This document shows positions 278 to 64,000 of a stretch of 64,000 nt of DNA, one piece after another; position 1 is the stretch's first letter; every line of letters begins with the position of its first letter. The translations under genes were made by a program, and so were the position numbers. Source of the DNA: Rosellinia necatrix (lineage: Eukaryota > Ascomycota > Sordariomycetes > Xylariales > Xylariaceae); NCBI GenBank assembly GCA_021209875.1, contig JAGYVD010000001.1:5828001-5892000 (forward strand), in the 5' to 3' direction. The notes beneath the pieces are model-generated. The model ran no database searches and was not told the DNA's origin. It saw only the letters and a program-made list of their open reading frames with translations.

Positions 278-491
278 TGATAGAGTCCCCGAAGGGGCCT
301 GTATTAATTAAGCCACTGGCTCGTGTATTATTAGATTAAATAAGCTAAAAATAGGTTGCACAGGCTACGGCTGGCAACAGGTGGCCTACAGCCACCCCTG
401 CAGGGGCTAAATCTAGTCCTACTAGATTTTCTTACTTAGCAGAAAAATTAATCGAGCATTTTTTTTTCTACTTTTATACTAATTTTTTTAA
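278..491. repeat. Left LTR of the 278-7841 element
   Basis: Direct-repeat partner of 7629-7841. It is much less mutated than its surroundings and contains serial perfect hairpins: GGTGGC/GCCACC (380-385 with 391-396), CCCCTGCAGGGG (395-406), and an AAATCTAG/CTAGATTT pair around 409-429. Confidence 0.6.
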
Positions 492-3158: not shown

Positions 3159-3214
3159 CTAAAAATAAAACTATTAAATAAACTAAAACTAAAAATAAAA
3201 CTATTAAATAAAAA
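3159..3214. repeat. Tandem duplication, 30-bp period
   Basis: A segment beginning CTAAAAATAAAACTATTAAA occurs twice, offset by 30 bp, inside the RIP block. The second copy runs into an A-rich tract. Confidence 0.5.
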
Positions 3215-5267: not shown

Positions 5268-5365
5268 TTTTTTAAAAATATTATAAACTTTTAAAAATAT
5301 TTTAAAACAAGCAAATTTTTTTAAAAATATTATAAACTTTTAAAAATATTTTAAAACAAGCAAAT
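5268..5365. repeat. Tandem duplication, 49-bp unit, two copies
   Basis: The unit 5268-5316 is repeated without visible change at 5317-5365. Identity between copies in a heavily mutated block suggests that the duplication arose after RIP. Confidence 0.7.
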
Positions 5366-7628: not shown

Positions 7629-7841
7629 TAATAAAGTCCCCGAAAAAGCCTGTATTAATTAAGCCACTAGCTTATATATTATTAAATTAAATAAGCTAAA
7701 AATAAGTTGCACAAGCTACGGCTGGCAACAGGTGGCCTACAGCCACCCCTGCAAGGGCTAAATCTAGTCCTACTAGATTTCCCTACCTAGCAGAGGAATT
7801 AATCGAGCATCTTTCTTTCTACCCTTATACCAATCTTCTTA
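7629..7841. repeat. Right LTR of the 278-7841 element
   Basis: Direct-repeat partner of 278-491 with the same hairpins. Its first third carries more RIP-type changes, and its last third carries fewer than the left copy. Confidence 0.6.
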
Positions 7842-28064: not shown

Positions 28065-28224
28065 TGTCACAGTTTATACTGCTAGTAGTTCTAGAAATGA
28101 CTTATGTTATTACATAAGGAGGAAAACTCTTCGCTTAGTTAATCGCCAGCTATTTATTTTTTTATATATAATATTCTAGCTTATGTTTTAATAAAGTTTT
28201 TAAGTTAGAACTAGTTCTATAATA
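28065..28224. repeat. RIP-mutated copy of the solo-LTR family
   Basis: 160 bp aligning along its whole length with the clean solo LTR 47389-47550. It starts TGTCACAG and ends CTATAATA where the clean copy ends CCGTGACA, all explained by C to T and G to A changes. It forms the exact left edge of the large AT-rich block, so it may be a terminal LTR of an element inside that block. Confidence 0.75.
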
Positions 28225-30302: not shown

Positions 30303-30615
30303 TGTTAAATGGGCTTTGTATGTGCGATGCACGTACTGTTCACGCGTGAAACAGAATACAACTTCTTGTTATACGATATCTATTATGCTTAATGATTCTA
30401 TTTAAGTAATTATCGTGCGTAGCATTATTTCAAGTTTTGCACGAGAATTCTGCTAGCGTACGACCTACTGAGATAACAGCGATAACACAGCTTATTTTAC
30501 GTATAAAACATACACGCTGTATATATATACGTGACATGTACGCCATATGCTTATACGAAACATATGCACGTACGACAGCTGTAAGTAACTGCAACCAATT
30601 GCCATAGTTCTAATA
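30303..30615 (-). repeat. 3' LTR of the Gypsy relic (LTR copy 1)
   Basis: Begins TGTTAAATGGGC and ends TTCTAATA (CA mutated to TA). It is nearly free of RIP along its length although the flanking DNA is saturated. Confidence 0.7.
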
Positions 30616-30931
30616 ATACAGCTATTAATCGCTAATAAACTTTAGTTATTTTAAAAAGCTAATTTATTTGTTTGCTAGTTTTAAAAAGTTATATTATTTA
30701 TATGTTTTTAATGCTAATTTATACTCTATTTTTAGCTTTATAAATTAAAACATTTAAACAGTATATGTTTACTAAAATAACGTATTAGTTTTAAGCTTTA
30801 TTTATAAACGCTTTAGCTTTTTATTATTTTTAGATTTTGTTAATTATATTTTCTGCTGCTAAAAATTTGTTTTATTAAGTTTTTATTTTATGTTTAATAA
30901 AGTTTTTAAAAAGTTTTATATTTATTAAAAA

Positions 30932-30975
30932 GTGCCAGCCGTAGTTAATAAAAAATAAGCTAAATCCGGTTGTTT
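30932..30975 (-). pseudogene. Gypsy integrase C-terminal remnant
   Basis: The minus strand reads TTGFSLFFINYGWH, which corresponds to the TGFSPFFxxYGxHP segment of Gypsy integrases. Downstream codons are broken by RIP stops. It is non-functional. Confidence 0.75.
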
Positions 30976-32759
30976 TTAAAGTCTGGTTATTTATTATAAA
31001 TTTATTAAATAATAGCTAGTTTATTTAATTATTTTAGTAGTAGCTATAATATGCTTAAAAATATTATTTTATTATAGCATTAATTATTTCTGTTTAATTA
31101 TTAGTTTTAAGTAATATATTATTAATGTTTTAAGCTGCATATTTAATTTATAATTTAGTTTTTTTAAAATATAAATATAAATTAAAGTTTTTGTTTAAAA
31201 TTATAATTTTAAAGCTTTATACAGCTGGAACATTTCCAACATAAAAATATTTGTAAATATAATTGCTTTTATATTTAAAACAGCTATAAAATGCTTTATT
31301 TTAATAAGCTTGTTTATTATTATTAATATATGCTAATATTTTATTTTATTTTATTAACAAGCTAGTAATAGCTTAATATAATTTATTAATATATTTATTT
31401 ATAGTTTAAAAGTATTAGTAAAAGTTTTAAAATTTTGCTAGTATTATTTAAAAATTCTTAGTTTTTAGCAGAAATAACAGCTTTTAATAAATATAGCTAT
31501 ATTTTATAATATATTAAACTAAACATATATTTTTAAAGCAGGTCTTATATTTTAAACCTGCTAAAATAACCTGCTAGCGCTGCAGTATAAGTTTAATTAA
31601 TAATTTTAATTTATACTGCTTTATAATTTAAAATAAAAACCCGGCTTTTTATATATATACGTCTTTTTTATTTTATAGTTTATTAAAGCTATTCGGAATT
31701 TTTTTTTTAAATAACAGAATAAAAACAAGCCTGCAGTAATTTAATAGCTTTTATTATTTTATAAGCTGTTTAAAAATATTTATAAGCTTTATTTATTAAT
31801 ATATTTATTATTTTTTGCTAATAAATACATATAATTTTATAAAAAGCTTAATTTTTTTTTATTTATTTTTAAAAGCAGTATTTATAATCGGTTTATAAGC
31901 CGGTTATTTTAAATCTGTTTTTTTACTAGTTAATTGCCTGGTTTTAAAATAAAACATTAGGAATAGTAGCTTTATAGCCCGGTTTATATATAATTTAAAA
32001 CTTAAAGTTGTTAAAAATTCTGACCAGCAAACTTATTTTTAATTTAAAAGTTTTATAGTAGTAAAATACTAAAGGTTTTTATAATTTATAATTATTTTTA
32101 TTATATTTTATAATTTTATAGTTTTAGTTGTTATTTTTAAAAGCTTTTATAATAATAAATAGTTTTTGTTATAAATTTTATAGTTATATTTTGCAAAGGT
32201 ATATTTTATTAAAAAAAACAACTAAGTGTTATTTTTTGTTAGTCCGTTTTAATATAGAACTTTTTTAATGCTTAATTTAAAGCATTTATTTTTATAATAG
32301 TTTTATATGCTAGTTTATAATAAACTAAAACAAATATTTTTATAAAAGCTTTTTAGTTTTTAAACGCTGTTATTTTGTTTGCTAATAACAAGTTTAACCA
32401 GCTGTACTTATTTATTAATTTTATTAAAAACAGGCTATTAAAAAAGCTTTAAATAAAACGGCGGTAATAGTTTATAAAACTAATAAACCGTTATAAATTT
32501 TTAACGTTTATAATAGTTTTTATTTTTAATTGCTTATATTTTTATTAAATTTATACTAATTTTATTTATAAATATTATAAAGCTAAAATATTTTGTTTTA
32601 ATAATATTAAATTTATATTTAGCAATATTTATAATAAGTTCTGCTTTAATTAGTTTTATAAACATATTATACATATGTTATTTATATTTTTTATAAGTTG
32701 CTATAAATTAATATATTATTTAAATATATAATAATATATTTATTTAATATATTAAAAAA

Positions 32760-33080
32760 TATATTGTTTATATAATATTAAAACAAGCTAAAAGCTTCTG
32801 TTATATTAAAATTAACTATTAAATATTTAAACAAGCTTAGCTTAATAATAAACGCTGTTTTTTATTTATTGCTAAAAGCGATTTAAAAATAGTTAAACGC
32901 TGCTGTAATATTTAGTTTTATATAAACTTTAGCTTTATATAATATATTTAAAATTTTTATATTAAAAATCAAGTAGCGATTTTTAACTATAATATTATTT
33001 AGTTTTTTATAGTTTATATAAATTTTAATACTTTTTTAAATTTTTAGCTAATAATATAAACGCAGCTGCTAATAAGTTGC
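32760..33080 (-). pseudogene. Gypsy reverse transcriptase remnant
   Basis: Minus-strand translation keeps the pattern of a Gypsy RT through many stops: NLLAAAFILLAKN (compare PAAAPVLFVKK), then a YRKLN-like segment, a KAKVYIKLNI-like segment (compare GAKxFTKLDV) and an AAFN segment (compare AFNRIR). Several stops fit TGG or CAG/CAA codons mutated by RIP. Confidence 0.65.
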
Positions 33081-35388
33081 TTAATTTAATAAATTTTTTA
33101 TTAAATATTTATTTAAATATTTTTATATAATAAATAGTTTTTATTATAATATCAGCTTTATTTAATAGTTTAATAATATTATTTTAAGCATTAAATTTAT
33201 TTTATAGTTAAAAAGTCTATATAACAGTAGTTTTTCTACGTTTATTAATAAAAAGCGTTAATAAAGTCGTAATATTTTTTAATAGTCTGGCGTAGATTTT
33301 ATTTTTAGTCACAGGTTTTTTTTTTAAATATTTTTATATGTTTTTATTTTTTATTTTTTAAGCTATAATATTTTTATATTTAATTATAATAACTTTTGAG
33401 TTGCTTTAGTATTACTGTTTTTTAACTAGGTTTTTTTATAAAAATATGTCAGATTATTTCTAAAAATATATTTATTATTAATACGTTTATTAAACATTAT
33501 ATTTTATTGCTTTTTTTTAGCTTTTATTGCTTATATTACGTTTATAACTTTAATAAACTTTTTATTATTATATATTTAATTTAAATGCTTAGTATTTTAT
33601 ATAATAATAAAAGTTAAAAACGTTAAAAAGTTATATAATTTTTAGTTTAATAGCTGTTTATTTTTTTATCGATAGTTTTTTTAAACATAATATATTAAAT
33701 TTAAACTTTTATATTTTTATTATTTTTTTGCTTTTAATTTATAAAGTTTTTTTTATTTAGTTAATATTAAAGTTATATTAGCGCAGCTATAGCAACTTTA
33801 ATATAACATCTAGGCCTAATAAAAGCTATATATATAATAAAAGAATTTTAATATATTTAGCTAGCATATATTTTATTTTATAATATTTAGTTATTATTTC
33901 TGCTAGCGTTCTGTTTATAAGTTAAAACAGTTTTAATTATAAAGCTTAAATTAAAAAAATTATATAATAATATAAAGTTTATATTAATAAAGCTAAATAA
34001 AAAAACATTTTAAGTTAATTAATATTTTAAATAAAATTAGCTTTTAATTATTATATTATATATTAATTTTAAAACTTAAAAATATATTAAGTTTTATTAT
34101 TTTTATATATAAGTTTTTATTTTTGCTTTTATATATATATTTTTTTTTTATTTTTAGCTGCGTTTTTTGCTAAAGCTTATTTGTTTTTTAAACCGACCAG
34201 GCTTTTATTTGCTTAAATAACGTTTTTTAATCAGGACTTTTTTGTTAGCTTATAACAACAAACATATATATAATAGCTAGCTTTTTATAATATTTATAAA
34301 GCTTTTTTAGTTTTATTTTATTTTTTATTTTTATAATAAGTTTTTTAAATAAAGTTTTTTAATTTTGTTTAAGTTTATTAAATCGTTTTATATTCGGTAT
34401 TATTTTACTGCTGATTTATTAATATAAAAAAAATATTATATCGTAGAACTTTTTATTTATTATATTATTAAATAGTTTTTTAAAAGTTTAATTTATTGAT
34501 TTATTTTATTTAATATTAATTAGTTTATTTATAATATTAAAATATTTTAAAGCTTTTTATTTATTTTAAATTTTAATATTTTAACTTGCTGTTTTTAAAC
34601 TTTTTATTTTTATTTGCTAATTAAATAAACTTAGAAATAAAATTAATAAATAAAAATAATTTTTATACAAGTTGCTTAAAGTTTTTAATTGTTTTAATAT
34701 ATATATTTATTATAATATAAACAGTATTAAATATATATAATATTATTTTATAGTTAATTTAAATTAATAATTATTTTATTATATTATTTAAATTGCTAGT
34801 TCTTATTTTTATTTAAGTTTAAATATAAACATACGTTATTTTTTAAATTATAAACATATATATAATATTTTATTAAACAAAATAAAAAATATAGTTTAAT
34901 TAAACGTTAATTTAATATATATTAATAATTATTAATTAATATATTTAATTTATTATTTAAATAAGTTAGTTTTTAATTTATTAAAAATAGTAGTTTATTA
35001 GTTTAAAATTAATATAACGTTATTTTAACGCTTATTAATTATAAATTTTATAACAGTATAACATTAATTTAAAAGTTTAGTTATATAATTATATTAGTTT
35101 AATATTTAACCTGTTTTATTAGCATATTATTAAATTATTGCTATTAATTTACGCTTTTATAATTAAATTAATAATTTTAATTTTTAAAAATTAAAATATT
35201 ATTTTTAGCTAAACCTGCACGTTTTAATTAAAACTAATATAGTTTATTAAAGTTTTTATTAATATAATATTATTAGCGCTCTATTATAGGTTTAAAAATT
35301 TTATAGCAAAATAAACATAATATATTTTAATAAAACTAATATATTAATAAATATTAAATTAAAGCTTAACTTTAATAATAATATAACT

Positions 35389-35697
35389 GTTGAATGGGCT
35401 TTGTACGTGCGATGCACGTACTGTTCACGCGTGAAACAGAATACAACTTTTGTTATATAATGTTTATTATGTTTAATAATTTTATTTAAATAATTATTAT
35501 ATATAGCATTATTTTAAGTTTTATATAAAAATTCTGCTAATATATAACTTATTAAAATAATAGTAATAATACAGCCTGTTTTATATATAAAGTATATATG
35601 CTGTATATATATATAATATATATATTATATGTTTATATAAAATATATATATATATAACAGCTATAAATAATTATAACTAATTATTATAGTTTTAACA
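35389..35697 (-). repeat. 5' LTR of the Gypsy relic (LTR copy 2)
   Basis: Begins TGTTGAATGGGC and ends TTTTAACA, preserving TG...CA termini. The first 60 or so bases are clean and the rest is saturated with RIP changes. Confidence 0.7.
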
Positions 35698-38600
35698 TTA
35701 GCTTTTTTTTTATTAATTATAGTTTTTTATTTATATGTTGTTTTTTGTTTATATATAGTTGTTTATATATATATAGTTGCTTGTTTATATATAATTGTTT
35801 TTTTATATAAAGTTTTCTGTTTATATGCAGCTTTTAATTTATGCATGCTTTATATAGCTGCTGCCCGGTGCTTAAACTTAGGCCTAAAATTGCTAATATG
35901 CTTTCCGCTGCTTAAATATACGTACGGCTTTATTTATAGCTAACTTTTTGTTTTGCTGTTCTGTTTGTTTTTTTTTTTTTTTATATATGCATATATATAT
36001 ATATATATACACGTATATAATAGCTTTTTTTTTATATAGTATAAATGCTAACTTTTAAAAGCTGCAGCATTAATAATAATAATAATAATAATATTTACTG
36101 CTGCTTCTGCTGCTACTGCCGCTGCTTTTGCGCCGCCTGCCTGTTTTTATTTTTGCTCTGCGTTTTTTTTAATAAAAAATGTTTTATAGTTTATAAACTT
36201 TATTTATATAAAAAAAACAGCTAGATAAAAATTTATTATTTTTTATAAAAATTTAAATTTGTTAAGCTTTAATATAATTTTTATATATTAATATATATAA
36301 TTTTTTTTAAACAGATAATTATTTATATATTTTTATTTTTTTTATTAATAAGTTTTTATATATAATAAAATATTAAAATACTATTACCGCCGTTTTTTAT
36401 AATATTTTATTTTAAGTAGCAGCTTTAAACGTTTTTATAAACGTTTAAGCTAAATTATCTGTTATAAAAACTATTTTTAAGCTTTTTAATTTAAAACTAA
36501 AAATTTAATATTTAAAATATATATAAATAAATTATATAATAACTGCTGCTATAATTAAAAAGCTTTATTTAATTTATATTATTAAATTTTAGTTTTTAAA
36601 AAACGTTTATATTTTTATATCTAGCGTTTATATAAAATATAATATTTTAATTATAATTAAAAAAAAAAAAAAAAAAAAAGTAACTTTTGATTTTTTTTTT
36701 AAAAAAATTAATTATTATATATAAAAAAAATATAAAGCTTAAAGTTTATTATATTAGTTTATTTATAGATTATAAACTTTTAAGCTTTGTTAGCTTTAGT
36801 TAAAAATTAAATTTAAAACGTATAATAGTTAATTGTTGTATATATTATTACTATATTACTAGGGCTTATTTTTAAAAAGTTAAGCTTTTAATAATAGTTA
36901 TATGTTTTTTTATATAAATAAAATAAAATTTAAGCTGTTATTATATAAAAAAAATAAAAAATATTTAAAAATAAAAAAAATAATAAAAAAATAGCAAAGT
37001 TTAAGGTTTATAATGTTTTTATAAACTTTAAACTTTGCAAGCTTTAGTTAAAAATTAAACCTAGGTTGTATAATAGTTAAATATAGTATATATTATTATT
37101 ATACTATTAAAGCTTGTTTTTTAAAAAGTCAGGTTTTTAGTTATGTTTATATTTTTATTATATAATAAAATAAAGTTTATATTATTATTATATAAAAATA
37201 ACGTTTATTATTATATAAACTTTGCTTTTTATTATTTTATTTTTTAATTTATTTTATATATATTTTAATTTATATAATTAGTTTATTTATAAATATTAAG
37301 TTTTTAAAGTTTAGTTTAGTTTTTATTTAATAAATATATTTATTAAATTATTAGCACCGTTAATTTATTATATTTTAAAAAAAAAAAATTTTTATACAAT
37401 TTTTAAAGCAATATAATATTTATTATTAAATGTTTTTTATATTATATTTAGTTTAATTAAACAGTTATATAATAATTTTAAATTTAAACATAAAATTATT
37501 AAAATTAAAAAACGTTTAAAATAATTAAGATTTTTAAATTATTATATATAAAGCTATTATATTATTAAATCTATTAATTATATTATACAGCTTATTTATT
37601 AAAACACTTCAGGTAACTTTTTATATTTGCTAAAGTTTTAGTATATAATATTTTCAGTTATTTTAAAACTTGACTTTTTTTTATATAATGCTTTATTATT
37701 AATATAATAAAAAATCTAAGCTAAAACTTATATTAGTATTATTTATAAAAATCTGTTAATAAAATAAACAGTTTTATATATATTAGGTTTAATAATATAA
37801 AAGTTAAACCTTGTTTAAAGTTATTTATTTATTATTAAATTTTTAATTTAAATTTTTAATATTATTTAAAACTAGATTAATTATTTAAGCGGCTATTAAT
37901 AAGTTGTATAAAACTTTTAGTTAATATATACTGCTAATATAAGCTTTTTTAGCCTGCTGTAAAACATAGTTTTAAGCAGTCTCTGTTGTGCGGAAGTTAA
38001 CCTGGGCTAGTTGTTTGCTTTATTTTTTTATATTAGGGTTATATTCTTTTATATGATAATATAATTTAATTATTATTAAATTTAATTAAATGTTTTAATC
38101 GAAATATTTTTTTAGCTTTATGTAAAAATTAGCTTGTTTTAGCTTATGTTTTTTTTTTTTTAAAAAGTTTAATATAATAAAACTAAATATATTATCTGTT
38201 TATAGGCTAATAATATTAAAATTTTCTAGTTGTTTTATTATATATAATAAATATAAGTTAGATATAAATATAAACATGTTTAATTATTTTTAGTAGTATT
38301 AATAATAAGTTTTAAACTAGTATAACTTTAATTCTGCTAGTTTATACAGCGGTTATACGATTTTTAAAATTGTTTTTTTAAAATATTTTAGTTTAAGTTT
38401 GCTAAATAGTTATATAAAGATCTTTTTTGCTAGCTTGTTTTTTAATTATATATACGTTTATATAATATTTTAAAGTTTATTTAAAATATTATAGTTATAA
38501 ATTAATAAAAGTTTAAATATTAACAGCAGTTTTTAGCTTATTTATTAAATAATTAAAAATTATATAAATATTATTTTTTTAGCATTATTATATTTTTATA

Positions 38601-41600
38601 TAACAAGTTTTAATTTTTATATAGTTAGGTTGTTTTTTTTTTATTTTTATATAAGTTTAAACTTAAAAATTTAAGCTTTATTATGCTTAGATTTAATATA
38701 TTTAATAAACTAAAATATTTTTATATAATAAAATCGTTAATTTTAATTACGTTTGATTTTTAAATAATATTTCTAATAAATAATTATACTGTTTTTTAAA
38801 ACTTTATTATTAAAACATACGCCTGCTGTTTTTTTGCTGTTATAAAAATATTGTTTAGCTTTTATATAAATATAGCTTATATATTAGCATTTATAGTAGC
38901 GTTTTTTTTTAGTCTGCTATGCTTTTATATAATAAATAGTTAAACAGTCTAAAATATTTTTATTTATTAGTTTATTATTTATTTATTATATAATAATATA
39001 GTTTAATTTAAATATATTAAAATTATATCGGGCTATTAATTAAATTAATAATTATATTAAATCTTTTAATTAATTAAATCTTATATAGTTTTTATTAACT
39101 TTTTTTTTTATATTAAAACTTTGTTTTTAAAAGTAATAAAATATATTATATATAATTAAGCTATTATGTTTATTAATCGCACAGTTAATTTTAACTTTAG
39201 CCTGTTTTTACGCAATTTTTTATAGCTTTTTTATTGCTTTTATTTTTATATAATATCTAGTAAAAAATAAATTTTAATTAATTTTAAAGTATGCTTTAAA
39301 TATTAATAAAATAAGTACTAGTCTGTTTAGACCAATAGTATTATTTAAAGCTTTAATTATTATTTATAAAATTAATTTTGTTTTATATAATATTTAATTT
39401 CTGCTTTTAATATATTATATATACAGCAAAATAGTTTATATGCTTATTTAATCTTATTTATTGCTTAATAAGCTTTAATAAACATTATATAATATTATAT
39501 ACCAGCTATTCTAGCTTAATTTTAGAATTTTTAATAAAAATTTATATTTAAATTATATATAATATAATTAAAAGTTTTTAATATATATTAATCTAATATT
39601 TATATAATACTTTTTAAACGTTATATATAAATATAAATTTTAAAATATTGCGGTTTAAAATAATATTATAGCATTAATAATATAAAGTATTTATTTATTA
39701 TTTATTTATATAGTATTAATTATAACTTTATAATTAAAATTATAGTTGTTTTTAATTAAAAACTTAAAACGTTTTAATATTTAATTATATAACTAATAAT
39801 AATAATAAAACTTTTAAATTTTTTTAAAATTAAATAGTTTATATTATATTTTATATAATTTAATAGTTTATATAATTTTTATATAAAAATATTTAAAGCA
39901 GCAATATAAACGTTTTAGCTCTGTTTTAATAAAATATATTCTAGCTTTTAAAAGCTTGTATTAAAAAATAAATGTTTTTATTTACGTATAATAAATATAA
40001 TTTTTCTGTTTTATTATATAATAACGTTTTTTATATTATTAAAATAGGCCTATAAACAGTTTATATTTTTAAAAAAATAAAAACAGTATTAAAATATTTA
40101 AAATATAATATATTATTATATTAAAACGTTTTTATTTTAACTATTTTAATTAATATAATAGTTTTTTATTTTTAAATTATATAAAAACAGTTTTTTTATT
40201 TATTTAGCTTATATATAAAAATTTATTTAAACATATATTTTTAATTATATTTTATTTATTATTAAATAATTAAAAATATTTATATTTTATAATTTATTTT
40301 AATACTTTATATAATATTAATTGTTTAATATAAATTAATTAAACAGAATATTTGTTTTTAATTTTAAATGTTTTTTTTATTATATAATATATAAATATAT
40401 TATTTATTAAAAACTAAATTAACTATATATTTTATTTATTATTAATTTTTTTTATTGTTGTTTAAGTCTAGCTTAAAATATTTTTTATATTTTATAAAAT
40501 ATGCTAAAAATCGTCAGGCAATAAGAAGCAATTAAAAATTATTTCGTACGAGTTAAAATATATGCTTTTTATACAGGCTTTTTTAAAATATATAGTTTAT
40601 TAATTAACAGCCCGTTTTTTATATATAAACATTTTTATTTATATAAACGTTATAATTAAGCTGTTTTTAAATTATAAAAGTTCTATTATATATTAAGCTA
40701 GCTTAAAAGTCTATATATATTTTTAAATTAAAAAACTTTTATATTATTTTTTAGTTATATTTTTAATTAATAAAATAAACGTTATTTATTTTTATATAAA
40801 ATGTTTTATTTTATTTTTATTTATAACTTGCAAACATGTTTTAAATTAATAAAAAGTTTTTACACGTAAGTTTTAAAATATAAAAGCTGTTATTAATTCT
40901 AGTATATTTTAGCATGCTTATATAATAATTATATTTAGCTAGATTTTATTTTAATAATTTGCTTTTAAAACTTGTTATATTTTCGCTAGCTTAATAATTA
41001 TTAGATTTAATGCTTTATATATAGCTAAATTTAAATTGTTTTATTTTGTTTATATAAAAATAATATTAGTTTAATCGGCTTAATATTAGCTATAATTTAT
41101 ATTTATATTAAAATAAATGTTTATTATATAATAAATTTTATTTTAAATTTTATCCGGTTTAATATTATATATATAAAAGTTTTTAGCTAAACTTTTAATA
41201 TAATTAAAAATATAACATAATATTAATTTTTATTATTTTAAATCGTTAATATAAACTAATAAACAGCTATACTTTATTATATAATAAATTATATAGCTTG
41301 CTAAAATAATTTTTTTTTTTCTATGTTTTTAAAAATAATATATTTATTAAAAATATATTTTATTTTATATGTTTTAAAAAATAAATTAAAAATATATTTA
41401 TTATAATTAAATTAAACGTTATATATATATATAATAATTATTTAAAAGTTTATAAAAATAATATATAATAAAATATTTATAAACTAGTTAAAAATTTAGT
41501 TTATATTTTATAAATATTATACGTTTATTTATTAAATTAAAATATATTTATATTTAATTATCGGTTATATAAATAATTTATTAGTTTTTTTTTTAAAGTT

Positions 41601-42537
41601 TAAAAATATATATTAAATATTAGTTTTAGTTATAATATATTAAATAATATTTTAAGCTATAAAATGCTTATATTATTTATATTTATTTAAAGCTGTTAAT
41701 TTAAAATAAACAAATTAAATGTTTATATAAATATTAATATAAATATAAACAAAAACGTTTTAATTTATTTAATATATATTATTTTTATATAATTTATATA
41801 AACTTAATTGTTTATATAAAGCTATTATTACTATTAAATTATATATTTTTTTTATTTAATATATTAAGCAGCTTTTGCTAGATCAGCTTATAAAATTAAT
41901 TTTATATTTTATATGTTTATAGTTTAAAGTTTTTAACGTATAACTTTTATAATAGCTAGCCGGTTATATTTAAATATTTATATTTTAAAATATAATAAGC
42001 TGTTTATATATTAAATATAATTAAAGTTATAGTTGCAATATTAAGCTTTTATTTTTAATATTATATATTAACAGCATTTTATATAATATGTTTATTAATT
42101 CTATAGTTTATTACGATTTTATTATATTATTTAATATTATTGCGTGTAATAAAATTTTTTTTTATTATATAATTATTTTAAAATTATTATAAAAATATAT
42201 TAAAAATAAATAAATAAATATTAATAATAAGTTAATAAACAGGTTTTAAAAGTTTATTTATATATTGTTTAGTTTTTATATAATAAATAGTTTTATATAA
42301 TTATATATTATCGCTTTTAATATTTAATTTTATTTTATAATTTTAAAATATAATAAAATATATAAAAATATAAATATTTAAAATTAATTTTTAAGCTTTT
42401 ATTATATAAAAATAACTTGTTTATATAAAACAAAATTTTAAAATATAATATAAAAACTTGTTTAAGTTTATTAAACTTTAGGCGCGTTTTATTTTTACTT
42501 TTATTAATTTATAGTTACGTTTTATAACTACTAATTA

Positions 42538-42845
42538 ATATTAAAAAGCTTTATATATATAATATATATATTTATTTATATATAAAACAGAATATAATTT
42601 CTTATTATATAATATTTATTATATTTAATTATTTTATTTAAATAATTATTATACGTAGTATTATTTTAAGTTTTATATAAAAATTCTATTAACGTACGAC
42701 TTATTAAAATAACAGCGATAACATAGCTTGTTTTACGTACAAAGCATACACGCTGTATATATATATGTGATATATACGCTATATGCTTATACAGAGCATA
42801 TGCACGTACAACAGCTGTGAGTAACTGTGACCAATTGCCATAGAT
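42538..42845. repeat. Third copy of the same LTR family
   Basis: Aligns to LTR copies 1 and 2. The left half (to about 42640) is fully RIP-mutated while the right half is almost clean, ending CCAATTGCCATAG. The last few terminal bases are lost. No partner LTR is visible, so it is a solo or truncated copy. Confidence 0.65.
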
Positions 42846-45472
42846 TAGTTTATATAATAATTATAATATTATCTTAATTTTTATTATTAGCGTTTAAAAT
42901 TTTTATAGCTTAAATATATTTTAGTTTTTTATATAAATATAATAAAATAGTATTTTGTTATATAATATTTTTAATAATAATTTAGTTTAAATAAAACGTT
43001 TTGTTATTATAGCAGGTTATATATTAAATTAAATAATTATTTTATTTAAAATAACGTTTAATTTTTATATTTTAAATTTAAGTTGTTTATTAATAATTAG
43101 CTTATTATTTTATTATAAAACTGCTAGTTGTTTTAATAATATTTAAAATATAATTAAAATTTATTAAGTATTTTGTTTTATTATTTTAGATCTTTAAAAA
43201 ATAAATTAATTTTTTTACAAAACAAAATATATCGGTAAAAATAAGCTTATTTTTATTAGCTATTATTTTTATATTGTTTTTATTTTTATTTAAATTAAAT
43301 TAGCTAATATCGGCCTGTTTTATATTATTATTATATAATAAAAAGTAGAACTATTAAATATTTAATGTTTTTTTAATTATTTTTTGTTTATATTTATAGT
43401 TATTTTATTATTTTAACCTTTTTAATTAAAAAGTTGTTTTAAAATTTTTTTTTACTTTTTTATTATTATTTATATTTAAGCTATTTAAATCGCTAAAATT
43501 ATTGTTTATTAAAAATAATCTAAGTAAGTTTTTATTACCTGCTAAATATTATAGTTTTAAAATATTATAACAAAAATATTATAAATATATTATATTTAAA
43601 CTAATATAAAATAAAAAACTTTATATATTATTATACTGCTTTAATAAATAAAGCTTTTATTAACAGATATATAGTTTATATTTTAAAGCGGACTTTTAAA
43701 ATAATAAGTATTAATACTATTAAAACTTATGCTAGTTTTATTAAAAGTATTAAAATAAACGATTTAAATAACAGTTCTAGTGCTAATATAGCTGTAGTTA
43801 AGTATTAATAACTAAAATATTAAAATTAAATAAATAATGCTGCTATATATTTAATTATGTTTAATATAGCTTTAAATAATTAATTAGCAGCGCGATAAAA
43901 TATTTTAAAAGCTAAAATCTTTATGTTGGCTAATATTCTAGCGTTATTTAGTTATTATATTAGTTAATCAACTGTTTTTACTGCTTTAATATTTCCGGCA
44001 TGCTTTTTTGTTTTAGTTATATTATTTTTAATTTGTTATATTAATTCTATAAAAAATTTATAGCTAAAATAAATAATTTAAAAGCTTATTTATTTAGTTT
44101 AAATTTTAACTTTTAATTTTATAATTTAAATTGCCATTATTATAATAATTTATCTATATTTTTAGCGATATAGTTTTTAAAACTCTTTATTTTTTAAAAA
44201 AATTAAAAACTGTTATAATTATTAAATATTGTTTTTTTAGTTTTAAATTAAATAATAATTTTAAAATTTTTATTAAATTTTTATTAACTTTATATTATTT
44301 TTTAAACAAGTTTAAAATATAAACTTATAATTTTTATTATTGCTTAATTTAAACTTGTTATTAAACTTATTTTAAACTATATTTTTTTTTAATATAAAAT
44401 ATTTAATATTTATAGTTTTAGTTTTTAATTTTTATATAAATTAAAAAATACTAGCTTAATAAACTTAAGTTTTATTAGCAAAAATAACGTTTTTTATTTT
44501 ATTTTTAAAACTAATAGTTTAAGTTAAACTATATTAAAGCTAAAGATTTTTTAGCTTTTATAACTTTTAAAACTAAATTTTTAACTATTAAAACTATTTT
44601 AAATTTTTTAAAGGTTAAAAGTTTCAAGTTAGTTTTATATTTTAATATATTAATAATTATTAAATAAATTAATAATAAAACCAATATATATAAGTTGTTT
44701 TATAATTAAGCTAATAAATATTATTAATTATTTTATAAATTTATATTTATATATATATTTTAAAACAAAATTAAATTTTAAAATTAAAAATAAAATAAAA
44801 ATATAATTAAATAATGCTAAAATTTACGTGCTTATTAAAAACTTAACATAAGCTTTTAAAAAATAAAACTAGTAATAATTATGTTTAAAATATATAATTA
44901 CTACTATTTAAATATAATATTAATTAAAGTTTAAAAAATAACTAATTATAATATTATAAATATTAAATATTTAATATTAAAATAATTAAAGTTTAAAAAA
45001 CAACAAATTATTTTAATATATTAATAGCTAAATATAAGAATATATAAATAACTAATAATTTAAACTGTTTAAAATATAATATAAAATTAAATTTAACTAT
45101 TGTTATATTTTTATTTTTATATTAGCAAAAATAAAATAATTAACAGGCTAACATAAAATATATTAAATCGATTAATTAATTAAATTTATAAATTAATAAA
45201 TATTAGTAAATTTTATTAGCAACAGCTAAACTTAAAAGCTAACAGTTTTATTTTTTAATAAACAGCGCTGCTTAAAATATAAAAAAAGTTATATTAAAAA
45301 TAAATATATATAAACATTAAAAAACTAAACATATTTTATCTGCTAGCATAAAAAAATAAACTAAAATATAAAATTATATAATTATAAAACTTATTATATT
45401 ATTTAATAAAGTTTACTAAAAGTAATATAGTTAAGTTTATAAAAATATAATATAGAATTAAAAAAAAAAAAG

Positions 45473-45585
45473 CTTCTGGTCTCTGCAGGACTAGAAGCCT
45501 TAGGCTAGTACTTTATCTAATCTACACAATCCTTATCTAGCTAGCTGCGCTAGCTAAATAAGGAGCCCCCCTCTTCCTGACTATG
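45473..45585. repeat. Hairpin-rich, RIP-free island
   Basis: About 110 bp of normal composition inside saturated AT-rich DNA. It contains CTTCTGGTC/GACTAGAAG arms and a second stem built on CCTTAT-CTAGCTAG with CTAGCTA-ATAAGG. Probably an LTR end or a small non-autonomous element. Confidence 0.5.
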
Positions 45586-46085
45586 TTAATTATAAATAAA
45601 ATAAATATTAAACTATAATAAAGCTTAAAGTACTACAGCATTAAAAATAATAAGCACATAAATAAATTAGCTAAAAAAAAACTTAAAAAAAAAACTTAAA
45701 AACTTTAAATTAACATTTATAGCAGCTGGACTTAAAATAATAACTAAAAATTAAATAAAAAAAATAACTAATAAATAAATATTAAATAAAGATATAAATA
45801 TTTTAAACAATATAAAAGCTGCAAAAATGTTTTATAAACTAAACAAATATTTAAAAATATTTATTTTATTTAAAAAATATTTAATTTATTATTTAAGTAT
45901 TATATCTGCTTATAAAAATTATAGTTAATATTATAATAAATTTAATTATTATAAAATAAAAATTTGCTGCTTTTATATATTTTATTTTTAAAAAAAACAA
46001 CAAAAAGCGCTAAAATATATAATTTATTATAAAACAATAATTATAAGCTAAAAAAACTAGCTTTTAAATAAAACAGATTTAAATA

Positions 46086-49901: not shown

Positions 49902-50369
49902 ATGACATCTCAAGATGGTAACCGCGTTGATATTAGCGGGGAAGATCATACGACTTCACAGAAGGGGAAACACAACTGGGCCGGCGTAGTCGGGGAATTA
50001 AACCTGATATCCCAAACTGGGACCTCGCACTCAGCCGAAACTAAAGGCAAACGCAATCGAACGGTGCAACGTGGCCAGGGGCACGTCAGCGCAATAACAC
50101 GGGACGAAAATCTGACAGGGCAAAAAGGGAAATGCAACAGGAGCACCACAGTGGGCACTTCCAACAGCGCTATACAATATGGCGAGAACAACACACATAC
50201 AGCTGAAAACGTTGACGGTGTCGATGCAGCAGTTCATGGCACAGGTTCAACCACTATTGCAACAGAGTCTGAGCAACAAATCGTTATAGACGCTGATGGC
50301 ATCTACGGAAGCATTCTCAAGACTTTTAGGGAATGGGTAGAGAGCAGAAGAGCTGGAGATATGCACTAA
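49902..50369 (+). CDS. Curlin-like amyloid-repeat protein (10-rung repeat)
   Basis: A 155-residue intronless protein made mostly of one repeat. Gly falls at residues 13, 22, 31, 40, 49, 58, 76, 85 and 94, and Asn (or His) at 16, 25, 34, 43, 52, 61, 70, 79, 88 and 97, both every nine residues. Gln falls at 20, 38, 56, 74 and 92, every eighteen. Such ladders of Asn and Gln are typical of stacked beta-solenoid or beta-arch amyloids; bacterial curlin uses a similar Q-x-G-x-x-N signature with a longer unit. After the repeat there is a Thr/Gly linker and a predicted amphipathic helix (ILKTFREWVESRRAGD). No signal peptide, so it is probably cytoplasmic. Two neighbours carry the same repeat. A role as amyloid signal or template is inferred; a structural or storage amyloid is an alternative. 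Confidence 0.8.
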   Translation: MTSQDGNRVDISGEDHTTSQKGKHNWAGVVGELNLISQTGTSHSAETKGKRNRTVQRGQGHVSAITRDENLTGQKGKCNRSTTVGTSNSAIQYGENNTHTAENVDGVDAAVHGTGSTTIATESEQQIVIDADGIYGSILKTFREWVESRRAGDMH

Positions 50370-50453
50370 GTTTGCTGCGTGGAGATTTAGATTCAATAGT
50401 TATGGAAAACTACTTAAACTCGCTTGATGTCCTTGCTGATACTCAACGTTGAG

Positions 50454-50753
50454 TTATCCAGTGATCCAGAGACGAATTTTACTCAACGACAGCAGCAACA
50501 AAGCCACGGTGATCACAATAATAGTAACCTTCAAGTATGGGAAGGGATTCGATGAATCCTGACTAGTAATATTCCGATTCCCTCTGATTACCCCACGGTT
50601 CAATTTACCAGTCTGATCGGTCGTATTCTCCATTCCGGAAATTGAGAGGTCATTTGTATATGTACCTTTGGTATTTCGTAGTTTGGGATTGGTCTGACCG
50701 GCGCTTGATTGATGAGGAGGTGGTGATTTAGTCCGGTCTTGCTTAGAAGACAT
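50454..50753 (-). CDS. Membrane-anchored protein with the curlin-like motif
   Basis: A 99-residue intronless protein, convergent with the neighbouring repeat gene and ending 84 bases from it. Residues 1-30 are polar and Pro/Ser/Gln-rich. Residues 34-65 hold the repeat, with Asn at 34, 43, 52 and 61, Gly at 40, 49 and 58, and Gln at 47 and 65. Residues 74-91 form one hydrophobic helix (LKVTIIVITVALLLLSLS), followed by a short basic tail (KIRLW), as in tail-anchored proteins. The expected topology puts the motif in the cytosol. No known family. By analogy it could be the membrane-acting or membrane-docking partner in an amyloid-triggered pathway; that is inference. Confidence 0.7.
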   Translation of the reverse strand: MSSKQDRTKSPPPHQSSAGQTNPKLRNTKGTYTNDLSISGMENTTDQTGKLNRGVIRGNRNITSQDSSNPFPYLKVTIIVITVALLLLSLSKIRLWITG

Positions 50754-51597
50754 GGTGAATAACCTGAAGATAGGTCTTGAACGATGGGCGGAATCTATGC
50801 TTCAAACACAAAAGGTTAGTGTGTGAGTCTGCTGGATGCAAGATGTCTAATGGAAGCTACGTACGAGGCTTTGCGCTACCACTAGTAGATAAAACGACGT
50901 ATTATTGAAAGGAAGACTTGAATATTCTGGCAGAATATATATAGAATGTAACAATGAAATTAAGATCTGCTCGACCGTACACTGATAGACCGGAATATTT
51001 GAGAAACTGCGTACATAAGTAAAGGGTGAGAAATGCCGCTAATAACGGACAGCTGGGCGACGTGAGGATATTATATACAGCACGAAGAATGTGAGCGGTA
51101 GGCTGTAGTTGATCGCTGCACAAGCCTGCTAAATTGGTAACATGAGTGAAAACCGTGCCGCCACCACTGTAACCCCTCACCAAGGGTCCGTTAGTACATG
51201 ACACGACGACACTTTCTTCCTAGTCAAAGGTCGAAGAAATATAGCCGACATGTGCCCAGTGTACACTACCTAGCCGGTTCAGCCAGGCCAGTCAGGTCTT
51301 ATACTCATTTAAAAATAGTCTATAACATGTTATTACAGGCACCTACAGGCGCCCGACAGTTGTAACAAAACGACAGTGGCAAATTTAGAAGGATCATATG
51401 ATTTTGTTAAATAATATGATAATAATGTACCTAACAGAATTATTTATATATCAGACTTTATAAGAGGAACTTGGAAATTTGTCTTCTATAATTTAATGTA
51501 CATTACATGGTTGGTTAACTAGTTATATATAAATATATAAAGAATATATTAATGTATGATTTATATATATGAAATACACGAGCAAACGCTAGGTCTA
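50754..51597. other. Intergenic, AT-richer, no supported gene
   Basis: A 100-codon minus-strand frame at 50902-51204 has a hydrophobic stretch but no motif or family. 51300-51600 is markedly AT-rich. Confidence 0.4.
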
Positions 51598-51921
51598 TGT
51601 TAAAAGTGTACACTATCGGCCTTCAACTCGAACAGTGCTTCGTAGTACAATGTACTTATGGTTCTGATAAGTCTGGTCAGGGGTATGAAGCTGTAAATAG
51701 CTGTATTTGCAGTATACTGGTCTGTATTGTGGTGTTGTATGTGTGTTGGTGATGAAGATGGTGGAATTCTAGGTGCAGTCCTAGAATTCCACCTACTAGT
51801 ACAGGTAGGTGGGTGGGCCTAGCCCAAGTGGGTCTAGCCCAGGTGGCCTGGGCCACCTTATCTAATCTTACAGTGGGGCAACTGGTGGTGCCAAGCCTGG
51901 CACCCCTTGCCTACTCTAACA
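51598..51921. repeat. LTR-like, hairpin-rich element
   Basis: Termini TGTTAAAAG and CTCTAACA form a short TGTTA/TAACA inverted end, as in LTRs. It includes a perfect 14-bp stem (GGTGGAATTCTAGG at 51760-51773 with its complement at 51780-51793) and smaller GGTGGC/GCCACC and GGTGCC/GGCACC stems. No target-site duplication matches, so the borders are provisional. Same style as the islands at 278-491 and 46086-46290. Confidence 0.4.
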
Positions 51922-51962
51922 GGTTCACTGTCCAATGAAGCTGCAACCATTTTGGTGGCAAT

Positions 51963-52014
51963 GAGAAGTGGCAGTGAGAAGTGGCAGTGAGAAGTGGCAG
52001 TGAGGAGTGGCAGT
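51963..52014. repeat. 13-bp tandem repeat, four units
   Basis: GAGAAGTGGCAGT repeated four times with one change (GAGG in the last), about 200 bases upstream of the SesB-like gene. Confidence 0.8.
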
Positions 52015-52212
52015 GGGCTTGGTCAAATAATTTAGGCGAACGTACGATTGGTCCACGGTAGCTTATTATAACATGCTTGTATGAGAAGATGGCTGCAAAC
52101 GATCATTGTGTGGAGTGATGTTCATCGCCGATTTTTCTTACTTTCTAAAACAACTTGCTCGAGATCTCTGTAGCTCGACACGAGTTCTAATTTACTATAC
52201 CAAACGCACACA

Positions 52213-53631
52213 ATGCCTATGTTGGATCTTTTCCGTTTCAGCAACCCTATTGCTTCTGGCCCTCGACAGGGGCCTGCTGAGGCTAACTATGCGCCCAGCC
52301 CTCACGAAATCGGCCAAAACTTCCTCAAAACTCTCGTGGACCCATCGAATGCCAACATAGAGTAGGCCGCAAAGATCAACCAAATTGGTGGTTCTTACAA
52401 GACAAGTCGCTAACTCTAGATTCCAGCATCGTCGCCGTCCATGGCCTAAATCCACTCAACAAGCAATCCCACGCAGAGGATACGTGGACGTCTGAAGGCC
52501 ACCTCTGGCTGAGCGAATTCCTCCCAAAACGAATGCCTCAAGCGAGAATATGCCTCTTTGGATATAACTCCAATGTGGCCTTTGGGTCGTCGGCGGCAGG
52601 GGTTAGGGAACAAGGCGAGAACATACTGAATCACCTGGAACAAATCAGAGCAGTACGTCTGCGTCAAGAATCACCCGTCGTCGTGGGATCTAACGCATTT
52701 CAGGACAACCCATACCGTCCACTAATGTTTATATGTCATAGTCTAGGGGGTTTGATCATCAAAAGGGTGCGACGCCTATCAATCGCCAAGCACGCTTGCT
52801 TCTATGAAAATAACGCTGACTGTCTCACAGGCGCTGGTTCACGCGAAGGCTGATGCAACATACAACAAGATCTGGCAGTCGACATTTGGACTCGTATTCT
52901 TCGCCACACCCCAGCAGGGAGGAAACCATACCTGTTTCGGGGATGTAGTGGCGAGTATCGCCCGCTGTGTATCAAGGAGCCCAGCAAACACATTCATGGC
53001 CGCATTGAAGGGAAATTCCACGTTTCTCAGTACGATCACAGACGATTTTCGCCAAATGCTGGAAGATTTCCAGATTCTCAGCTTCTACGAAACCAAGCCA
53101 CTGGGCTCCTTGGGCATCGTCAGTATTACTGTCCTACTGATTGTGAGATTTGGGTCTCGCTGACACCCGCTCTAGGTGGTTGATCGCAAGTCGGCGTTGC
53201 TTGGACTCCCGGGGACACGCGAGCGCCAGATACCAATCGATGCTGATCATAGAGGTATTTGCAAGTTTGCCAGCAGCGAGGACCCCAGGTACAGGCTAGT
53301 GGAGGATAATATAGCGCAGATGGTTATGAATGCCACCTCGCCTGCTTTACACCGGCGCGGGAGCGACGAAGAAGAGCTGAGCGACGATGTGGGGAATACG
53401 TCTCACGTCACTGGCGAAGATAATGCCATCAACCAAGCCGGCCACACCAACGAAAGCATCACGAATGGGAATAGGAACAGAACAGATCAGTTTGGGCACC
53501 GAAACAAATGCCAGGTCGATGGGATGAGCAACAGCACCACCCAAGTCTCTCTGGAATCTACGGGCGTTCTATTGCTGGGGCTAAAGCTCATATTGGATAG
53601 ATGGGCCGCAGGTGAGAAGGATATCACGTAG
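52213..53631 (+). CDS. SesB-like alpha/beta-hydrolase with C-terminal amyloid motif
   Basis: A lipase/esterase-like protein of the fungal SesB type. Exons 52213-52361, 52427-52766, 52831-53118 and 53176-53631 give 410 residues. All phases agree and each intron (57-65 bp) has clean borders; the first has gtaggc, GCTAAC and CAG. The hydrolase fold begins DPSNANIDIVAVHGLNP (the oxyanion-strand HGL). The nucleophile elbow is CHSLGG with Ser155, then FFATPQQGG, then DADHRGICKF with the likely catalytic His284. Residues 333-382 are the shared repeat: Gly 339, 348, 357, 366, 375; Asn 333, 342, 351, 360, 369, 378; Gln 346, 364, 382. A hydrophobic helix and WAAGEKD tail close the protein. In the Nectria sigma cluster a SesB lipase shares an amyloid motif with an NLR; here the motif is shared with two neighbouring non-NLR genes. 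Lipid or membrane damage as output is inferred. Confidence 0.85.
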
Positions 53632-60853: not shown

Positions 60854-63800
60854 TTATTCCTCCAGTTTGTTAATCTCGACCTCGTCAAATAAATCCATGC
60901 TAAGTATTTTGACGACCTTCAAGCCCCCCACCCTGAAAGCCTCTGCCGTCAAGCGACGGGCGTCCCTACTATACACCCCATCAGGCTTTACGATAAGCCG
61001 CAGTTGGTACTGGCCATCGCGTTCGACTCTCCCTGTTATAAACCTGTGCCGGGGGTTCTCTGGAAGCGAAGAGATGGCGCCAACCACACCAGGATGACCT
61101 GTGCGGCGCTCCCGCTGTCTTAGCGACTTCACGCCATCGCTGGCGCTTATGCAATATATGTCATAATCTTCGATAACTTTCTTCTTCCATAATTCCCAGG
61201 TTATAGACTTAGCAGCGCTAAAATACCTTGTATGGGAATCCCAGTTCGCAGATGCATACTCAAGCAGCGGGTGTCCCTGAGTATATTCTGCCCCCGATGA
61301 ATGACTGCCGATGGCATTCATGATGGGCTCGATGTTGATAGGCACGACAGGTGATGCCGGGTCCGATATGCTTCGAAGTAGAAGGGCTGGGATAGCGCGT
61401 TTACCATAGGCTTTTTCGATAATGGCCAACGGTGAAGGGAGTAATACCGACCTACGCATTTGAATCTCTTGAAAGTTGAGATAAGTCAGACAAATCTCGC
61501 CCATGGTGTGATCAGCGTCGCGCATTTTGAAGTGGAATGAAGTGAGATCGAGTTCAACAGGGTCCTCCAGCAAAAACTGCCTAACGGCTTGGTGCACAAA
61601 CCGAACCGTAAGGTCCTCCTCGTCTGTCTGCACAAGATTTTGGCACCATAAGGCAATGCGATCTAGGTCATTAAATAAACGTTCTCGGGCTAATCGCTGC
61701 TGCCCAATTTCAACCGCCAGTGCTGCTTGTAATTCGTCGAGAGACAGGGGCCGGACTGCAGCAGCGATCAATGGGAATGTCCTAGTGGCAGCTTGAGCAT
61801 GATTTTCTGCCTTGATGCGACGAAGTGCTCGGCGGAATGTTTCGGGGAGGCCACGAGGGAGATTTTGGATGGCATTTCGGACGTCCTCATCGCAATGTTG
61901 TGAGCAGATCTCCTGAATCTGGAAGAATACCCAAAGAAACCTGTTCGGCTCGTCAACTAGGATAGCAAAGGCGACGAGGTTTGTGCTTGTACCTACATGC
62001 CATCGGCCCCTTCAGTCAACGCTGTTTTGACTTCTTCAAGAATTCCAGCATTCCCAATTCTGAGTTCACCGTTCGTTGCTCTTTCGTCAACGACTCCCGT
62101 CACGTAGGTTGCGATATCACCGTAAGTACCAGTCCCGCCCGTGGCAATCCGTTGGAAACTTGGGAAACACCTGCAAATTTCGTCCAAGAGGCTTTCTCGG
62201 CTAGCTAAAAGCAACTTGACATTAGTTCGGCGAGAGGAAAGATACGCCAACCCCTTAAGCAATGTAGTGCGCTCCCACTTGTCACACTCATCCAGGCCGT
62301 CAATAATGATATAGAATTTTGTTCTGCCCGTCGTTATATCAACAAGGAGTGCTATAATACGTCCAACATCTTCCGAAGATACGGAAACCTGGATTTTATT
62401 TTCCATTTCATCCGACAACTCTGCAGCGCATGGGAGTCCCTGCCGGAGGATGGATTTGATGATTGTTTCAGCTTTTAATGACACCTTGTCATCTGATCGT
62501 ATGAAGAAAAAAAATACCATGGTGTCTGTATCGGTTTTCGTCAGTAATAGATGATCTATTACACTCGTTCTTCAAGGTCGTTAGTAATGTTGGACTAGAT
62601 CATCCACCCATGCACTATCCACTCACATGGCAACGGTCTTGCCCGAACCGACTGGACAAGCTGTCAGCGAAACCCTCAAGTTATTTGGCATGAAACCCTG
62701 CCTACTCTTTCCAGAACACCATAGCAGTGGATTATCAAGCTGATTAGCCCAGCTAATAAATTCAGAGGCTTGAAATACCCAATTTGCCGTATCGCAACTG
62801 GACGGTTTACAATCAGTAACTATGTTGATACACCAAGTTACAAAATGTGCAATAATGTGTGCGGTCTTTGCAGTTGAAATGGGCATGAGCTAAATGGCTA
62901 TTTGATTTCCAAGAACGCCAAAATCATAGGAATAAAAGGGAACCCCACTCACTATCGTTTTCTCTGGTTTTGTTTTAGAGACCTGAGGTGATTGTACGTA
63001 GAGAGGGAATCAAGAACGTGCTGTTTTCGTTCGCCTAGACTGCTGATGAGAAGACTGCTGAAGTATATTTCAATACTATATCTTTTCAGCTTACGTGTTC
63101 GTCTGAGGTCACACTCAAGTTGCCACTGACGGGTTTCGCGCCAACCGTCGTCGGTTCGCTTAACAAGCTGCGATATCATAGCTCGGCCCTGCAAAGCCTC
63201 TTTGCGTTCCCGAGCTTGAAGCTCATGTTCTTTAGCATCGGCATGCGCCTTGGCTGCGTCGATCGCTTCCTTCACACAATTGCTGCAGCCGTCTAAATCT
63301 ACTAGATCGACTTTGAACTCGTCATCGAATGGCCTCCACATTGCGCTGAGAGTTTGATTGATCCCTAAGTAGGTGGATAAGCCATAAGTCTAACAAAGCT
63401 ATACGCTTTGAAAACAATCCAAAATCACGTACATGGTTTCTGAGATGCGTGAATTACGTGCTTGCAACAGCGGATTATAGCAGCATGAAAGTCAGATAAG
63501 GCATCTTGTAATCGCTGGGATGCAGGATAGAGGGCCTGATATTCAGTGAAAAGGGGACAAAGGCGGCCGATTCGCATAAATAGCTCTGACGTGGCCTCAA
63601 AATACGAGGTATAGTTTACGATTATCTATCACGGCTGAGCTCGCTTCTAGAAGATGGGATAAGCACACCTACTTGCATCGTCAATTTCACACTACCCCAA
63701 ACCAAGGCGGCAACCTCTGGATGGGACGAGACGAATACATCGACAACAGTGCAGAAGTTCCGAACGGACGATAAGACCGTGTAAAGTCGGCTGCCGATGC

Positions 63801-63990
63801 TTTTGCCCCTACGATTCCTATTGGCAAGGTCTAGTTGGGCTGTGAAGACGAGTATGGAGTCAGCGTCGGGGACGGTGTTGAGGCCGGATAGTTTGGTCCG
63901 TTGATCGCGGTCGAGAACAAGTTGAAAGTCAGCGATGGCGTCCTGGAGCGGCGAGCGCGGATTAGCCAGCTTTGACGATTCCGCGTCCAT
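60854..63990 (-). CDS. NACHT NOD-like receptor, repeat-less, DUF7708-type N-terminus
   Basis: A STAND ATPase of the fungal NLR group, whose members act in non-self recognition and regulated cell death. Seven exons (60854-61940, 61997-62569, 62627-62651, 62706-62797, 62953-63364, 63433-63625, 63673-63990) sum to 2700 nt, 899 residues, with all phases consistent. The N-terminal domain (about 20-200) carries the SSHPEVAALVWGSVKL signature of the fungal DUF7708-type domain. A linker leads to ANWVFQASEFISWA and LLWCSGKIGSGKT (P-loop near 336-344). Walker B is FYIIIDGLDECD near 432-443. The winged-helix region follows (FLWVFFQIQEIC, LPRGLPETFRRAL, RPLSLDELQAAL, FVHQAVRQFLL). The remaining 250 or so residues show no ankyrin, WD40 or TPR repeats. 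The P-loop is split by an intron before a 25-nt exon. No curlin-like motif was found in it. Confidence 0.88.
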
Positions 63991-64000
63991 CGCATCGTTC

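Follow-up and report, generated by a model that had tools for sequence, protein, structure and literature searches.

The stretch analysed here, the window, comprises 64,000 nucleotides of a Rosellinia necatrix assembly (C1:5828001-5892000 of a 49.1-Mb genome in 12 contigs). Within 3.7 kb of this window, a single motif is common to three neighbouring reading frames, i.e., those of a stand-alone repeat protein, a SesB-like hydrolase and a small open reading frame (ORF). An initial annotation of this DNA had placed three ORFs here with the motif in one register in each, and they are indeed present at those coordinates. The features are the following, the defining positions being those of the motif rule described below.

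49902 to 50369, plus strand: stand-alone repeat protein of 155 residues, single exon (ORF, R. necatrix homologue and coding-like codon use)
49938 to 50207, plus strand: ten nonamers, repeat-protein residues 13-102 (24 of 25 defining positions)
50454 to 50753, minus strand: small ORF of 99 residues with a predicted C-terminal membrane anchor, gene status uncertain
50481 to 50537, minus strand: hydrophobic stretch, small-ORF residues 73-91, predicted membrane anchor (mean Kyte-Doolittle value 2.24 over 19 residues)
50556 to 50636, minus strand: three nonamers in the small ORF, of the Q-type, non-Q-type and Q-type (8 of 8 defining positions)
52213 to 53631, plus strand: SesB-like alpha/beta hydrolase gene, 393 residues (spliced model and DUF676 score)
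53413 to 53547, plus strand: five nonamers, hydrolase residues 322-366 (all 13 defining positions kept; identical to the R. necatrix protein at 43 of 45 residues)
53548 to 53628, plus strand: hydrophobic tail after the motif, hydrolase residues 367-393, identified from the sequence (identical to the R. necatrix protein at 24 of 27 residues)

The motif consists of consecutive nonamers, ten in the repeat protein, three in the small ORF and five in the hydrolase, that follow the rule G-x-x-[N/H]-x-small-x-(Q or V/I/T/A)-x, and Q recurs at intervals of 18 residues. The odd nonamers have the form G-x-x-[N/H]-x-s-x-Q-x and the even ones G-x-x-[N/H]-x-s-x-[V/I/T/A]-x (for the small ORF as read from its sequence); thus, position 8 alternates between Q and V/I/T/A, and s, at position 6, is a small or beta-branched residue (T, A, I, S, C or G), except that the repeat protein has an H there in its last nonamer. 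The strict 9/18 register initially proposed stands as far as the spacing of G, N/H and Q is concerned, but H, counted here as N, replaces N in three of the ten nonamers of the repeat protein, and its seventh nonamer has no G. When each sequence was shuffled 3000 times (for SesB only its last 103 residues), the best shuffles reached 10 defining positions for the repeat protein, 6 for the small ORF and 8 for SesB, and the observed counts were reached in 0/3000 each, which confirms that the motif is genuinely shared. Likewise, when the three motif segments are aligned locally in pairs, they outscore all of 2000 shuffles. The remaining parts of the proteins do not align where compared, in agreement with the earlier view of one motif on otherwise unrelated proteins; the idea that the repeat protein and SesB have related C-terminal tails was rejected, as 1893 of 2000 shuffles score as high.

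The mean identity between nonamers is only 24% within the repeat protein and 29% within SesB, and the motif is therefore no copied low-complexity repeat. At the DNA level, the motif copies compared are 44-52% identical, which disfavours a recent duplication. The best 27-residue segment in the rest of the window keeps 5/8 positions, and elsewhere in the genome, across 109 further stretches (245,658 bases in six frames, six loci over the cluster itself being left out), no such segment met 6/8. Protein searches of the genome, run at E <= 1 for the repeat protein and at E <= 10 for SesB and for the small ORF, each missed the two known partners of the query; because they are thus insensitive to motif copies, their negative outcome for further copies carries no weight.

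The stand-alone repeat protein has codon use that scores like that of genes, and its one match at E <= 1 among 12 candidates is the R. necatrix protein SAMD00023353_3200960, with 73% identity over all 155 residues. Between these two proteins, 23 of the 25 defining positions are identical versus 38 of 65 others (Fisher p 0.002), and positions 1, 4, 6 and 8 of the nonamers are kept at 35/40 versus 26/50 at the other positions. Such conservation would fit a strand with positions 4, 6 and 8 facing inward and G1 in the turn. The predicted structure (predicted local distance difference test score, pLDDT, 64.6) is a beta-solenoid, in which the predicted strands step by 9 residues early in the array and run together further on. 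With low-to-moderate confidence, the model suggests a two-sided beta-solenoid with about five coils of 18 residues each. Its N-terminus is hydrophilic and, judged by hydropathy only, shows no obvious signal peptide. A fetched protein, P0001, gave no PDB sequence match at E <= 10, and its Pfam match to DUF3830 lies below the cut-off (E 0.0062, 17 versus 26 bits) and was not used.

The hydrolase does occupy the span 52213-53631 given initially, but not as a single ORF. It consists of five exons (52213-52361, 52427-52652, 52704-52766, 52831-53118 and 53176-53631) separated by four GT-AG introns, and the spliced product of 393 residues aligns without gaps to the R. necatrix protein SAMD00023353_3200950 with 94.7% identity. 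These introns and the R. necatrix protein account for the breaks in the reading frame, and a frameshift in SesB was rejected. The spliced protein scores 25.4 bits against DUF676, above the cut-off of 20.3, as does the fetched protein P0002 (24.7), whereas the unspliced read-through of 52362-52766 reaches 14.6, below the cut-off. By sequence, the nucleophile elbow around the serine reads CHSLGG. The protein thus appears to be a SesB-like (DUF676) alpha/beta hydrolase, as annotated earlier, and a putative lipase or esterase. The last exon, which carries the motif, has codon use that scores like that of genes, and the C-terminal 86 residues have one match at E <= 10 among 32 candidates, again SAMD00023353_3200950 (92% identity). 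The predicted structure of SesB (pLDDT 35.7) was not used, and P0002 gave no PDB sequence match at E <= 0.1.

The R. necatrix counterparts of the repeat protein and the hydrolase bear the consecutive locus tags SAMD00023353_3200960 and SAMD00023353_3200950. Because the tags are consecutive and the contig is of the same stated size for both, the two genes are taken as neighbours there as well. Thus, of the proposed three-gene neighbourhood, this pair is conserved, whereas the small ORF has no match. Divergence from the R. necatrix counterparts is larger in the repeat protein than in the hydrolase. This larger divergence of the former would suit a role in recognition, but equally a mere tolerance for substitutions at outward positions.

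The small ORF is the member whose status is least certain. Its candidacy as a real gene is based on the motif and the anchor, which lie in one frame: the ORF keeps all defining positions of the motif and then continues into a hydrophobic stretch of 19 residues, a combination that a chance ORF is unlikely to show. To this extent the membrane-anchored protein of the initial annotation stands, but its status as a gene has gained no independent support. No homologue was found at E <= 10 (three candidates, about 5.8 billion proteins searched), and a Pfam match, Rv1476, lies below the cut-off (E 0.19) and was not used. The codon use is not coding-like: its score of 0.033 is as low in 8 of 247 real 99-codon segments and as high or higher in 308 of 1231 null segments, and another frame of this stretch reaches a higher score (0.101). 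Furthermore, if the locus tags run in tens, the R. necatrix annotation has no gene between the repeat protein and the hydrolase, although small genes are frequently missed by annotation. It is therefore a real possibility, to be taken seriously but not the expected outcome, that the small ORF is no gene and that the repeat protein and the hydrolase form a two-gene system.

The motif had been called curlin-like, and this description is supported by several observations. A profile search of PDB with the motif gave a curlin protein as first match (E 1.2e-4). In the structure comparison of the repeat-protein model, the CsgA fibril was the best VIA match, tied with other solenoids. The comparators were CsgA (PF07012), the curlin-repeat protein of PDB entry 8c50 and the E. 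coli CsgA fibril 8enq. The published curlin rule is N-x-core-x-core-x-Q on both strands, with ~23 residues per repeat (PMC10192328). As in curlin, N starts the strand in the fungal motif, small or beta-branched residues alternate inward, Q ends the strand and, by sequence, an x-G-x-x arc follows (PMC10192328). However, strand and arc together comprise 9 instead of 11 residues and a repeat 18 instead of ~23; the fungal strand reads N-x-core-x-Q, with one core position fewer, and Q is present only on alternate strands. Judged from the sequence, the motif thus follows the curlin rule minus one core position per strand. In curli, the outward residues are described as escaping the symmetry of the core (PMC10192328). 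Other differences are the fungal host and the apparent lack of a signal peptide mentioned above. The repeat protein scores 12 bits with the Pfam profile Curlin_rpt, below the cut-off of 20.7, and a search of the genome with this profile gave no match at E <= 10 (E. coli was among the positive controls).

Known fungal amyloid motifs are described as pairing the N-terminus of a NOD-like receptor (NLR) with the C-terminus of an effector (PMC5485727, PMC3321046, PMC9815663), and the sigma and PP loci are known to encode SesB-type hydrolases with a tail of this type (PMC5485727, PMC3321046). A C-terminal motif on an effector that is also found in the product of an adjacent gene is what SesB residues 322-366 and the repeat protein present. 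Yet, membership in the known families found no support, as the Pfam profiles of sigma, PP and HET-s do not match the cluster proteins. The sigma system, i.e., the ses locus of Nectria haematococca with sesA, sesB and het-eN, likewise has a SesB-type hydrolase and a C-terminal motif common to neighbouring genes, and its size plan of 25-27 residues in three sub-motifs, with patterns such as ABA, is similar (PMC3321046). However, the sigma sub-motif consensus GxGxQFNxx / GGTQNINT does not fit the cluster motif, whose arrays of 5 and 10 nonamers are longer and for which no motif-bearing NLR was found. The sigma profile (PF17106, NACHT_sigma) gave no match at E <= 1 in the repeat protein, the small ORF, SesB, P0001 or P0002 and none in the genome, and the strings G.G.QF and GGTQN are absent from all three cluster proteins. 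The PP locus of Chaetomium globosum (HELLP/SBP/PNT1) likewise comprises three genes, among them that of a putative lipase, SBP, which bears the motif (PMC5485727), and the spacing N-x-x-x-Q-x-G is common to both motifs; however, as published, PP is a single pseudo-palindrome, FxGx(x)NxGLQLxGxNxGxL, and no 9-residue tandem. The PP profile (PF17046, Ses_B) has no match in the cluster proteins or the genome, and N.G.Q.G.N is absent from the three proteins. HET-s and HRAM also form beta-solenoids from repeated coils, but with 21-residue repeats, another consensus and a HeLo effector instead of SesB; the HET-s 218-289 profile (PF11558) matches none of the cluster proteins at E <= 1. Finally, the GDQN motif of Fusarium oxysporum, recently proposed as a fungal amyloid signalling motif, is likewise rich in G, N and Q, but it reads NxxxGxQYxxxGxGDQNxVSxxxxQxN on an NLR/SesA pair and is not a 9/18 tandem (PMC12261475); the string GDQN is absent from the three cluster proteins. 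Neither the matches listed from the open-licence PMC literature, which excludes subscription papers and preprints, nor passages of PMC12881547, PMC9815663 and PMC12261475 describe a fungal signalling motif of the curlin type or an arrangement like this one.

The cluster may well constitute a switch of the amyloid type: the stand-alone protein would seed the copy of the repeat that the hydrolase carries and thereby activate the enzyme; we prefer this interpretation, albeit tentatively. The solenoid ends of the stand-alone protein would stack into filaments, and the motif segments of the hydrolase (five strands) and of the small protein (three strands) would join these. The hydrolase thus gathered, perhaps placed at the membrane via the small protein, would hydrolyse lipids, which would lead to cell death or growth arrest. 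Since no motif-bearing NLR was found, the trigger would be the stand-alone protein itself, through its amount or state, for instance when the fungus has fused with another strain. For the amyloid state, templating, filament formation, membrane recruitment and cell death we infer from precedent. HET-s, itself non-toxic, templates HET-S and offers a precedent for a free template (PMC3321046). The cell-death or immune circuit proposed initially thus keeps its curlin-like motif, its SesB-type hydrolase and the conservation of two genes, but an NLR with the motif and membership in a known profile found no support. The membrane-anchored member is the weakest part. More generally, fungi could use a shortened curlin fold intracellularly as an immune or self-recognition switch, in which a free curli-like protein, and not an NLR, templates a SesB-type lipase and a membrane-anchored copy places the filament; this wider proposal is speculative, and we consider it doubtful.

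If the switch exists, the motif would be a further fungal amyloid-signalling motif, and the first with the grammar of bacterial curli among the matches listed from the literature mentioned above. The template may then be a free protein instead of a receptor, and whether curli and signalling amyloids have a common design becomes directly testable. R. necatrix is a root-rot pathogen of trees, and strain rejection limits the spread of mycoviruses that are considered for its control. A new candidate self-recognition locus would bear on this strain rejection.

Rather than passing on a death signal, the motif could serve as a scaffold: intracellular curli-like filaments might cluster or store the hydrolase, or a soluble solenoid might sequester and restrain it. 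Ten consecutive strands could, according to the model, close into a stable monomeric solenoid, no receptor was found, and the hydrolase and its motif are little changed relative to R. necatrix. Nevertheless, indirect evidence associates SesB-type domains bearing tails of this kind with altered growth and with cell death (PMC3321046, PMC9815663), and a plain scaffold does not need a repeat protein that diverges far more than the hydrolase. The laboratory fungus Podospora anserina has served earlier for examining motifs of this sort in vivo (PMC9815663). We therefore regard the scaffold as not very likely.

In a conventional NLR-driven system, the receptor would have been missed, with the motif on an NLR elsewhere and either interrupted by an intron or remote from the NACHT domain, or the NLR would have been lost in this strain. 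The known fungal families were described from NLR/effector pairs (PMC5485727, PMC3321046, PMC9815663). The genome contains 84 NPHP3_N places (some of which are pieces of one gene), 29 NACHT and 9 NB-ARC matches, partly overlapping. However, none of the 84 NPHP3_N places (83 fetched loci and one in the window) has the motif in the 900 upstream bases in six frames, although intron-split motifs could escape such a scan. Nor was the motif found in 38 NACHT and NB-ARC loci. In the fetched loci, no 27-residue segment met 6/8 positions, 16 met 5/8, and a looser five-position match is present in one (L035). Hence, the expected NLR carrying the motif was not found in the NPHP3_N, NACHT and NB-ARC loci of this genome; the R. 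necatrix NLRs of the SAMD00023353 set were outside the search. The regular expressions for sigma and PP had no matches in the fetched NLR stretches and therefore provide no positive control. One NLR-type gene lies in the window itself.

60857 to 63999, minus strand: NLR-type gene (DUF7708, NPHP3_N/NACHT, GPIID_WHD), running to the end of the window; without the motif and not shown to belong to the cluster

This NLR, ~7 kb from SesB, has an N-terminus of its own that resembles DUF7708, a match exactly at the cut-off. The genome may well use NLR motifs elsewhere. A HET-s-like match (C1:2733405-2733464, 15.3 bits, E 0.96, below the cut-off) precedes an NPHP3_N match (C1:2733570) by 55 codons in the same open frame of 882 residues, and a second one (C4:2112743-2112898, E 0.0016, also below the cut-off) lies in a frame of 310 residues. 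These matches are weak evidence, and the sole sign, that the distance scanned is large enough to include the NLR motifs of this genome. All in all, a missed or lost receptor seems unlikely. As an observation in its own right, the matches on C1 and C4 might represent an unlinked HET-S/NWD2-like pair.

The bare spacing of G, N and Q is not diagnostic of the motif. A strict DNA pattern of four nonamers matches at least 119 bacterial and archaeal stretches, 113 of which hold an in-frame match, with 295 in-frame matches in total. In 82 of these 113 among the stretches listed, the nonamers are at least 70% identical even in the least alike match, and several of the bacterial matches are RTX-like by eye. 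None of the 295 in-frame matches listed keeps the rules for positions 6 and 8, whereas two of the pattern matches that fall in the repeat protein keep the full rule, as does the single match in SesB. A low-complexity coincidence with no shared function is thus already disfavoured and highly improbable: such spacing is common among bacterial low-complexity tandem repeats, but the fungal nonamers differ among themselves and yet keep four positions, and three copies lie together while other stretches of the genome reach no comparable score. A frame of Melainabacteria (L135, 1316-1408) consists of near-identical nonamers, GTQNTMLQT, with N-x-core-x-Q, x-G-x-x arcs and Q on every strand.

SesB-like domains are numerous in this genome, in which the hydrolase as query has 39 matches (exon pieces counted); in the other SesB-like loci fetched, no segment keeps 6/8 motif positions. 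The ORFs at 48400, 48507, 50902, 54604, 54882 and 54946 of the window have no Pfam match at E <= 0.1, and NCBIfam gave no match. The G+C content is ~10-19% in positions 1-10000 and 28001-46000 of the window and mostly 43-64% elsewhere; the low blocks, which flank the gene-bearing parts, are what repeat-induced point mutation would leave.

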